Source of the DNA: Quadrisphaera sp. INWT6
Lineage (GTDB): Bacteria; Actinomycetota; Actinomycetes; Actinomycetales; Quadrisphaeraceae
Length of the DNA stretch: 64,000 nucleotides
Assembly: GCF_015390235.1 (NCBI RefSeq)
Contig: NZ_VUOH01000005.1
Span: 62,001 to 126,000 of the forward strand
Direction of reading: 5' to 3'
Shown here: piece by piece, positions 29,774 to 32,929 of the stretch
Position numbering within the stretch: position 1 is the first letter of the stretch
How the letters are laid out: each line of letters opens with the position of its first letter
Position numbers and translations under genes: made by a program
The notes under the pieces: model-generated
The model's input: only the letters and a program-made list of their open reading frames with translations
The model's database searches: none
What the model was told of the DNA's origin: nothing

Positions 29774-30619
29774 TCAGGCGGCCTCGGCGTCCTCCAGCTG
29801 CACCCGCAGCCGCTCCAGGGTCCGCGAGAGCAGGCGCGACACCTGCATCTGGGTGACGCCGATGTCGGCGGCGATCTGGCTCTGGGTCCACCCCTTGAAG
29901 AACCGCAGCGACAGGATCCGGCGGTCGCGCTCGGGCAGCGACGCCAGCAGCGGCGCGACGCTGACGTGGTCGACGAGGCGGTCGATGGCGCCGTCGTCGC
30001 CGCCCAGGGTGGCGGACAGCGGGGTGCCGTCGGCCTCGCCGTCCATCGGGGCGTCGAGGGAGGCCAGGTGGTAGTCCTGCGCGGCGGCGAGCGCCTCGAT
30101 GACCTCCTCCTGCTCCACGCGGAGGTGCTCGGCCAGCTGGGCGACCGTCGGCGAGCGCCCGATCCGCTGGGTCAGCTCGGCGGCGGCGGCGCCCAGCGAC
30201 AGGCGCAGCTCCTGCAGGCGGCGCGGGGGCCGCACGCCCCACTGCCGGTCGCGGAAGTGGCGGCGCAGCTCGCCGGTGATGGTGGGCACCGCGTAGGGCA
30301 GGAACCCGCGGCCCTTGCCCGGCTGGTAGCCCTGGGCCGCCTTGACCAGGGCCAGGGAGGCCACCTGCACCAGGTCGTCGAGCTGCTCGCCGCGGTCGCG
30401 GAACCGGGCCGCGAGGGCCTTGGCGACGGGCAGGTTGAGGACGACGACCTCGTCGAGCAGGCGGGAGCGCTCCGGCTCGGAGGCGGCGCTGGCGCGCTCG
30501 AGGAGGTCCTCGGTGGCCTGCTCGCGGGCGCTGGAGGGCCGCTCGGCGGGGGCCTCCTGGGGCGCGGGCACGCCTTCGAGGGAGGGCGGCGCCACGGCGG
30601 CACCGGCGTCGACGGGCAT
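29774..30619 (-). CDS. SigB/SigF/SigG-family RNA polymerase sigma factor
   Basis: Group 3 stress-type sigma factor. Region 2 (LPVAKALAARFRDRGEQLDD, LVQVASLALVKAAQGYQPGK), region 3 (GRSPTVAQLAEHLRVEQEEV) and region 4 (LPERDRRILSLRFFKGWTQS, QIAADIGVTQMQVSRLLSRT) are complete in 281 residues. ATG 30619 has AGGAG six bases upstream. Such factors are usually held by an anti-sigma kinase and freed by an antagonist. No anti-sigma gene adjoins it, but PP2C phosphatases that could feed such a circuit lie at 32933-35515 and 60497-64000. Confidence 0.93.
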   Translation of the reverse strand: MPVDAGAAVAPPSLEGVPAPQEAPAERPSSAREQATEDLLERASAASEPERSRLLDEVVVLNLPVAKALAARFRDRGEQLDDLVQVASLALVKAAQGYQPGKGRGFLPYAVPTITGELRRHFRDRQWGVRPPRRLQELRLSLGAAAAELTQRIGRSPTVAQLAEHLRVEQEEVIEALAAAQDYHLASLDAPMDGEADGTPLSATLGGDDGAIDRLVDHVSVAPLLASLPERDRRILSLRFFKGWTQSQIAADIGVTQMQVSRLLSRTLERLRVQLEDAEAA

Positions 30620-30832
30620 CCGAGCTCCTGGTCTCGCGGTCTGTCTCGGACGGTGGTGCCAGCGCAGCGCGGACGGCCTCCACCCCCGGGCTCCGCCCGG
30701 GCCCGCCCAGCACAACACCGGGCAACCACCCCGGCAAGCCGAGCCAGGAGTGGTTCAACGGCGACCGGGTACGTGCCTCCGGCGGGTCCGCGGCGAGGTG
30801 CAGGGTGCTGGGCCCGGTGGTAGCAAGTCCCC

Positions 30833-31425: not shown

Positions 31426-31914
31426 CTACCCGGCGGTCTCGGAGACCTCGCCCGCGCGCCGCTCCTCCTCGGGGGTGGCGTCGAGCCGGCCCACGGCGAG
31501 GTCCTCCAGGCGCGCGAGCAGCTCGCGGTTGCGCAGGCCGATGGCGACGGCGCGCAGCGGGCGGGGCACCCAGCTGCCGGGCCCGTGCACGGCGTCCTCC
31601 TCGATGGTCACCACCGTGCCGTCGCCGCGCCCGAGCAGGGTGATGACCACGCGGGCCTCGCCCAGCGGCCAGCCCTTCGCGGTGAGCTGGATGCGGCGGC
31701 CTGGGTCGACGGCGTCGCAGGTGGACGTGCCGCGCCGCATCAGCGGCCAGGCGCCGAAGGAGTGGTGCAGCACCGCCCCCGCGGTGGGCCAGTCACCCTC
31801 GACGGCCCGCATGTGCGCGGTGCCGACGACGAAGACGGGGTAGTTCCAGGCGTCGCACAGCACCTCCCAGACGAGCTCCGGCCCGACGGGGACCCAGTGG
31901 CGTCGTGTGCTCAC
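31426..31914 (-). CDS. SRPBCC family protein (START/polyketide cyclase-like fold)
   Basis: 162 residues predicted to form a single SRPBCC helix-grip domain. The start WVPVGPELVWEVLCDAWNYP followed by FVVGTAHMRAVEGDWPTAGA and the late helix VPRPLRAVAIGLRNRELLARLEDLA follow the usual pattern. GTG 31914. The family binds hydrophobic ligands; no substrate is suggested by the neighbours. Confidence 0.85.
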   Translation of the reverse strand: MSTRRHWVPVGPELVWEVLCDAWNYPVFVVGTAHMRAVEGDWPTAGAVLHHSFGAWPLMRRGTSTCDAVDPGRRIQLTAKGWPLGEARVVITLLGRGDGTVVTIEEDAVHGPGSWVPRPLRAVAIGLRNRELLARLEDLAVGRLDATPEEERRAGEVSETAG

Positions 31915-31978
31915 GGGTCATGCCTAGGCCGCCGGGCGGCGAGGTGCCAGCCGGGGCGCACCGGCGGAGGATCTCCAG

Positions 31979-32929
31979 GTGCAGACGTTCCTCCCCTTCC
32001 CGAGCTTCTCCGCCAGCGCGGAGGTGCTCGACTCCCCCCGGCTCGGCAAGCAGCGGGTGGAGGTGCTGCAGGTGCTGCGGGCCCTGGAGCTGCCCGAGTA
32101 CGGGTGGGGGAACCACCCGGCCGCCGCCATGTGGCGCGGGCGCACCCCGGCCCTGGTGCGGTACGGCCTCGACTGCGTGACCGCGTGGACGGACCGCGGC
32201 CACGCCGACTCGACCGCCGAGCAGATCGCCGAGTTCGCCCCCGAGGTGGTCGGCGCCACCCAGGCCGACCTCGCCGCCGCGGGCGCGCTGCCGAGCTGGG
32301 TGGGTCGCGAGGACCTCCACCGCTCGCACCGGTCGAACCTGCTGCGCAAGGACCCGGAGCACTACGCGCCGCGCTTCGAGCGGGGGCTGCCCGACGACCT
32401 GGAGTACGTCTGGCCGGGGGCCGACGACGTGCCCCCGCGCGCCGCGACCCCGGGCCGGGCGCTGTGGGTGGTGCGGGCCCCCGACGCCACCACGCTGGGC
32501 GTGCTGGTGGGGCAGGGGGTGGTGGGCCTGGACACCAGCAGCGGCATCGACGTGCCGGCCGACCTCGCCGACGAGCCCGGCGCCGCCGCGGGCAGCGGGC
32601 TGCGGGCGCTCCTTGCCGAGCGGGCGGCCGCGGCGGGCGCGCCCCGCCGGCGCGCGGGCAAGGCGCTGCGCCAGCTGGAGGCCCTGGTGGGCGAGGTGGC
32701 CGTCGGTGACGAGGTCGCCGTCCCCGTCCAGGGCGACCGGGCCCTCCTGGTGGGCGAGGTCACCGGCGAGTACGTCTTCGCGGGCGTGCAGGCGCTGGTG
32801 CCGCACCGCCGGGCGGTGCGCTGGCTCGACGTCGTGCCCCGGGCCGCCGTCGAGCGGCCCGCCGTCCTGCAGGACCCCCGCGCCCTGTTCCGGGTGGTGC
32901 TCTCCCTCGACGCCTCGCCGGCGGCCTGA
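31979..32929 (+). CDS. MSMEG_6728-like (pyrimidine-dimer-glycosylase clan) protein with C-terminal EVE-like reader domain
   Basis: 316 residues in two parts. Residues 1 to about 145 match the MSMEG_6728 family, related to Pyr_excise: QTFLPFPSFSASAEVLDSPR, LGKQRVEVLQVLRALE, GWGNHPAAAMWRG, LHRSHRSNLLRKDPEHY and a YVWPG end. From residue 161 the pattern changes to one I know from N-terminal domains of modification-dependent restriction enzymes: LWVVRAPDATTLGVLVGQGV, then EVAVGDEVAVPVQ, LLVGEVTGEYVF, HRRAVRWLDVVPRAAV. That suggests an EVE/PUA-like modified-base reader fused to a base-excision domain. GTG 31979 has GGAGG nearby. Assignment of the second domain is by remembered pattern, not a search. 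No nuclease or methylase lies beside it. The stop is three bases from the convergent gene. Confidence 0.75.
   Translation: MQTFLPFPSFSASAEVLDSPRLGKQRVEVLQVLRALELPEYGWGNHPAAAMWRGRTPALVRYGLDCVTAWTDRGHADSTAEQIAEFAPEVVGATQADLAAAGALPSWVGREDLHRSHRSNLLRKDPEHYAPRFERGLPDDLEYVWPGADDVPPRAATPGRALWVVRAPDATTLGVLVGQGVVGLDTSSGIDVPADLADEPGAAAGSGLRALLAERAAAAGAPRRRAGKALRQLEALVGEVAVGDEVAVPVQGDRALLVGEVTGEYVFAGVQALVPHRRAVRWLDVVPRAAVERPAVLQDPRALFRVVLSLDASPAA

Follow-up and report, generated by a model that had tools for sequence, protein, structure and literature searches.

In MBD4, a eukaryotic repair enzyme, a modified-base reader is tethered to a DNA glycosylase. The same reader-plus-glycosylase plan is proposed here for an actinobacterial fusion protein, although the domains are unrelated and MBD4 is eukaryotic. 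The best structural match of the first domain of this protein is T4 endonuclease V (DenV; PF03013; structure 2end), a viral pyrimidine dimer glycosylase that repairs UV damage and whose catalytic groups are the amine of an N-terminal threonine and an active-site glutamate (PMC3285167). The domain itself belongs to the MSMEG_6728 family (NF038085), which many actinobacteria have and which abounds in phages from the environment, and for which no function was found in the literature searched; MSMEG_6728 of M. smegmatis is listed as being of unknown function (PMC7174638) and is a member of the SigF stress regulon, with SigF-dependent expression (PMC4694148). For the second domain, the comparison is with the EVE-type readers. 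The EVE census describes fusions with PD-(D/E)XK, HNH, PLD, GIY-YIG, GmrSD and McrB domains, and the word glycosylase is absent from its text (PMC7641849). In the EVE-HNH endonuclease VcaM4I, residues P24, W82 and Y130 hold the base that has been flipped out (PMC7897488). Excision of unusual bases, as proposed here, is also the activity of the Brig1 and Brig3 glycosylases, with Brig3 having an ASCH-domain hydrolase as its partner (PMC11078745, PMC13160076).

The gene considered here lies in a stretch of 64,000 nucleotides from Quadrisphaera sp. INWT6, referred to as the window. The open reading frame is exactly as given in the sequence-only reading, and chance is ruled out by the NF038085 and Pyr_excise matches, the orthologues and the dN/dS values. 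All of the motifs quoted in that reading are also found, being RLGKQRVE (residues 21-28), NHPAA (45-49), SHRSNLLRK (116-124) and YVWPG (143-147) in the N-terminal half and LWVVR (162-166), VGDEVAVPV (242-250), GEVTGEYVFA (259-268) and PHRRAVRW (275-282) in the C-terminal half. The features are as follows.

31966..31970, plus strand: Shine-Dalgarno-like GGAGG, 8 nt 5' of the GTG (upstream sequence)
31979..32929, plus strand: whole gene, MSMEG_6728-type domain plus EVE-like domain, 316 aa, GTG start (orthologues)
31979..32416, plus strand: MSMEG_6728/Pyr_excise domain with a T4 endonuclease V-like helical fold, residues 1-146 (NF038085, PF03013, AlphaFold2 model, 2end)
31979..31990, plus strand: invariant N-terminus M1-Q2-T3-F4, with Met1 at the position of T4 Thr2 (45 sequences; model residue 1 on 2end residue 2)
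32060..32062, plus strand: Glu28, candidate counterpart of the catalytic Glu23 of T4 endonuclease V (invariant; ungapped register in a non-significant hhalign alignment)
32417..32455, plus strand: Pro/Ala-rich linker, residues 147-159 (lower pLDDT; variable in the alignment)
32456..32911, plus strand: EVE/YTH-like domain, homologous to the Mrr-type reader, residues ~160-311 (hhalign, PDC-S02, VIA)
32753..32824, plus strand: reader core GEVTGEYVFA...PHRRAVRW, residues 259-282, with Tyr265, His276 and Trp282 (common to Mrr-type readers)
32867..32890, plus strand: fusion-specific LQDPRALF, residues 297-304 (Gln298 and Asp299 invariant in 40/40 fusions)

This architecture had been put forward as one not known as a described system, and none is found in the EVE census or in the literature searched; a search on pyrimidine dimer, glycosylase and EVE domain, which was not exhaustive, returned no fusion of an endonuclease V-type with an EVE-type domain. 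In the interpretation that we favor, whose chances we regard as evenly balanced, the gene would on its own encode a two-domain repair glycosylase/AP-lyase with a DNA-reading arm, as suggested by the sequence comparisons and the structural model.

The EVE/YTH-like C-terminal domain

The comparison of the fused C-domains with Mrr-type readers by hhalign gives 98.8% with an E-value of 9e-17, and the PADLOC profiles of the candidate defence protein PDC-S02 are matched by the C-domain in their first third only (E 1.5e-9). Genomes of the same order encode proteins of 340-360 aa with a reader of the C-domain type ahead of an Mrr_cat nuclease, and one protein of this type matches PDC-S02 along its entire length (E 5e-107). 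The N-terminal reader of these type IV enzymes is therefore homologous to the fusion C-domain; the fusion differs from them in having no nuclease domain (no Mrr_cat is found in it by Pfam), in the C-terminal position of its reader and in having LQDP in place of LGAxxTVF. The Pfam EVE family (PF01878) gives no match with the fusion protein at E-values up to 1, and the Mrr-type readers are likewise unmatched.

The C-domain is modelled with a pLDDT of ~40-72. The structural matches (VIA) listed after 2end are nearly all EVE or YTH domains, with Z-scores up to 6.3, and include YTHDC1/2 as well as 1wmm, 2p5d and 1zce, which we take to be EVE proteins. YTH/EVE entries also lead in the Foldseek PDB search, with no E-value below 0.001, and a model of the C-domain alone, calculated from four sequences, is uninformative (pLDDT 43.6). 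The hhalign score, the PDC-S02 match and the EVE/YTH structural neighbors agree with the earlier assignment of the second half as an EVE-type domain related to type IV restriction readers. A C-terminal half lacking an EVE/PUA fold would have contradicted this assignment, and such a failure is not seen, the nearest folds of the low-confidence model being EVE and YTH domains.

Residues W163, R166, G263, R288, Q298 and D299 are invariant in all 40 fusions, which come from two classes. The aromatic reader residues vary: Y265 is kept in 28/40 fusions, H276 in 30/40 and W282 in 30/40, the losses being in the f2 lineage and in the Frigoribacterium sequence (L003), whereas in the families f1 and f54 all of the Y/H/W residues seen in restriction-enzyme readers are retained. 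Fusions have LQDPRxxF where the Mrr-type readers have LGAxxTVFxI. With variable aromatics and this replacement, the C-domain was inherited from readers and has acquired a constraint of its own. The fusion resembles VcaM4I in its predicted EVE-type fold and in the placement of a putative base-flipping reader on a DNA-acting domain, although the effector domain differs, and the W82/Y130 pocket of VcaM4I can be traced only in part in the fusion C-domain. The C-domain may bind modified bases, although roughly one fusion in four has lost the aromatics; the f2 lineage together with Frigoribacterium is at least one case in which the domain may keep only its fold and the W...R...R...QD core.

It is conceivable, if unlikely, that the C-domain is not a modified-base reader and that it serves as a scaffold, a docking surface or an enzymatic PUA/ASCH-type domain, such that only the chemistry of the N-domain matters and the QD motif is used for an intramolecular contact or for catalysis. 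The strict conservation of W163, R166, G263, R288, Q298 and D299 next to varying aromatics is what this would predict, as is the restriction of LQDP to the fusions and its absence from Mrr-type readers, and there is a precedent in BapA, an Asp-dependent enzyme with a predicted ASCH fold that acts together with a DNA glycosylase encoded in the same operon (PMC13160076). The complete Y/H/W set in f1 and f54 argues against it.

Several other proteins carry related domains. In L217, an McrB-like AAA_5 ATPase that runs from position 111 on, an EVE-like domain is apparently inserted inside the ATPase. Short proteins of L211, L216 and L219 have the same EVE-like domain and a C-terminal Cys-rich putative zinc ribbon (CPxCGLLR...YCRDC), and in L093 the region behind the EVE-like domain resembles GIY-YIG by eye, without Pfam support for GIY-YIG. 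Two members of 261 aa (L080 and L083) have the middle of the C-domain deleted and keep the terminal LQDPR motif. No relatives of the C-domain were found in viral contigs.

The Pyr_excise N-terminal domain

Residues 1-146 are a clear member of the NF038085 family, with the same invariant residues (E 2.2e-64, 215.9 bits, cut-off 100). The model of this family has 149 positions and its typical members have 150-213 aa; the fusion adds an unrelated second domain of ~155 aa, which occurs in one branch only. The Pyr_excise family PF03013 is matched with an E-value of 2.4e-15 by the whole protein and 5.8e-17 by the N-half alone (57-62 bits, gathering score 23), and T4 DenV (from NC_000866) matches it too (E 3.7e-14, 53 bits). 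The N-half of the AlphaFold2 model has a pLDDT mostly above 90. The top structural match of this model is 2end, with a Z-score of 8.7 and an rmsd of 3.7 over 105 residues, which is a middling value (for helical folds, Z < ~13), and the alignment spans model residues 1..132 and 2end residues 2..129. The family match, the PF03013 match and the ranking of 2end are in agreement with the earlier description of the first half as Pyr_excise or endonuclease V-like. The hhalign comparison of the MSMEG_6728 family with ten DenV-type sequences (T4 DenV and nine relatives) is not significant, and sequence searches of the PDB with the whole protein, the N-domain profile and the C-domain profile give no meaningful match.

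Seven residues, R21, K24, Q25, E28, H46, H117 and K124, are invariant in the 45 bacterial and phage sequences. Glu28 lies opposite T4 Glu23 without a gap, in the non-significant hhalign alignment, and it may correspond to this catalytic residue. The Schiff-base nucleophile of T4 endonuclease V, Thr2, is absent from the MSMEG_6728-type N-domain: position 2 is Gln in 45/45 sequences of this family and Thr in 10/10 DenV-type sequences. The initiator methionine normally stays on when it precedes Gln. Since residue 2 is an invariant Gln, Met1 probably remains in place, and the role of the Thr2 amine may fall to its α-amine. The fusion thus has in common with T4 endonuclease V the PF03013 match, the best structural match and the possible Glu28/Glu23 correspondence, and it differs in having Met1-Gln2 for Thr2, in its extra EVE-like domain and in the missing direct profile link.

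Stand-alone N-domains are very common in phages, with at least 586 matches in IMG/VR (including L094-L173) and 32 INPHARED records, some of them carrying the annotation pyrimidine dimer DNA glycosylase. The gene is in some phages near genes for DNA polymerase III, dUTPase, thymidylate synthase or DNA ligase; in one it is beside an RNA ligase gene and a tRNA array, which is not repair-like. In the Foldseek BFVD search, structural relatives of the N-domain are also seen in giant viruses (Lausannevirus, Pithovirus).

The N-domain could also be a non-catalytic or differently acting nucleic-acid binder, possibly on RNA, which would make the fusion a nucleic-acid-binding regulator. The replacement of the Thr2 nucleophile by an invariant Gln2, the lack of a significant direct profile link to DenV, the RNA m6A readers among the nearest folds of the C-domain and the phage copy adjoining the RNA ligase gene and tRNA array all point in this direction; the strong, active-site-like conservation of the seven residues, a PF03013 score well above the cut-off and the top rank of 2end make it unlikely that the N-domain is not a glycosylase.

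Proposed mechanism

In the repair interpretation, the N-domain would bend the DNA and act on damaged or unusual pyrimidines by cutting their glycosidic bond, after which the abasic site would be nicked via a Schiff base. The retained α-amine of Met1 would act in place of the T4 Thr2 amine, and Glu28 would serve as the acid/base. A second DNA-contact or base-flipping module would be provided by the C-domain, either to raise the affinity or to target the enzyme to one kind of base.

This interpretation is supported because PF03013 is common to the N-domain and T4 DenV, because 2end is the top match and because Glu28 is invariant; some phage homologs are near the DNA polymerase III, dUTPase/thymidylate synthase or DNA ligase genes, and the homology of the C-domain to modification-dependent readers and its EVE/YTH fold neighbors also favor it. 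It is weakened by the absence of Thr2, the non-significant profile link to DenV, the middling Z-score of 8.7, the low-confidence model of the C-domain, the partial loss of the aromatics and the phage neighborhoods that are not repair-like. A more far-reaching version, which we consider rather doubtful, is that of a modification- or lesion-directed glycosylase/AP-lyase that uses the retained Met1 α-amine as its nucleophile, is guided by a base-flipping domain of the EVE type that was acquired from type IV restriction enzymes, and founds a repair family common to actinobacteria and, without the reader, to very many phages. The fusion in this way provides a concrete hypothesis for the family, in which a second, base-flipping domain directs the excision of bases. 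If true, reader domains of restriction enzymes have been recruited into base-excision repair, and the endonuclease V fold accommodates a new chemistry, with a retained Met1 amine.

Distribution and gene context

The search for the same architecture in other actinobacteria, which had been proposed as a check, finds it in two actinobacterial classes, with six or more families represented. Within the family to which the window belongs, a match is present in 11 of the 13 genomes (10 of full length, one cut by a contig end). The fusion is also present in f54 and f2 of the same order and in Frigoribacterium, and in the other class it occurs in 10 of 66 genomes, from three families, with every strong match being fused. 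The second domain is not part of an ordinary MSMEG_6728 domain, since most of the bacterial members and all of the retrieved phage members are without it: most of the actinomycete homologs sampled have 150-213 aa and no tail, and every one of the viral copies that were retrieved (80/80) has 130-169 aa and likewise no tail. Trees of the N-domain have a branch (support 93/87) that sets apart all fused proteins, together with two members that carry another tail; the fused label requires one change without these two rows and three with them. The fusion is old, has essentially one origin and is vertically inherited. The two other-tail members, at L036:1075-2016 (minus strand) and L049:1501-2460 (plus strand), are both inside the fused branch, and their different C-terminal tail of ~165 aa has no Pfam match and is not EVE-like in appearance.

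Full-length orthologs from many genomes have 59-96% identity, and dN/dS is 0.08-0.40 for both halves of the protein; the N- and C-domains are both under purifying selection. Long antisense open reading frames overlap the gene and are judged to be GC-rich artefacts, nothing having been found in their favor. The fusion gene stands alone, because its upstream neighbor, an SRPBCC-like gene (31426-31914, minus strand), is divergent from it and the downstream one, a minus-strand GAF/PAS region followed by an apparent SpoIIE-type phosphatase region (by eye), is convergent on it. No other Pyr_excise gene was found in the 4.2-Mb source genome.

The synteny around the gene is common to near relatives. 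Its neighbors are conserved within genera and differ between families, being by eye sulfurtransferase-like, dehydrogenase-like, epimerase-like and subtilase-like. In the neighborhoods compared, there is no operon partner conserved between families and no restriction or defence partner, nuclease or translocase beside the gene. The absence of a conserved neighbor or defence island and the near-universal presence in the own family favor housekeeping repair over McrBC-like restriction, and the earlier proposal of an McrBC analog or defence system finds no contextual support, as the neighbors are housekeeping-like, differ between families and accompany a gene with core-gene-like inheritance in its own family. 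Brig1 and Brig3 are monofunctional members of the uracil-DNA-glycosylase superfamily found in defence loci, whereas the fusion gene is not in such a locus, and no fold of this superfamily is among the structural and Foldseek matches listed for the fusion model. An anti-phage effector that excises modified phage bases in the manner of Brig1/Brig3 with a different fold is improbable, even though its reader half derives from restriction enzymes, DNA glycosylases with a defence role are known and the insert that yielded Brig1 was actinobacterial (PMC11078745), given that there are no defence neighbors and the unrelated neighbors differ by family, that presence in 11/13 own-family genomes with synteny in near relatives is core-gene-like, unlike typical defence genes, and that the N-domain is widely carried by phages themselves. 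The interpretation as a repair glycosylase is further supported because the fusion has essentially one origin, is under purifying selection, has no operon partner and is the sole Pyr_excise gene, and because MSMEG_6728 is in the SigF regulon.

A scan for a sigma-70 promoter and a terminator of the fusion gene gave none. A SigF/SigB-type promoter was considered and rejected, as 3/83 upstream regions match, compared with 2.5 expected by shuffling, and none of the matches is in the window. At ~1.3 kb from the fusion gene, the window encodes a sigma-70 family factor (29774-30718, minus strand) with regions 2, 3 and 4, which is SigB/SigF-group-like by eye.
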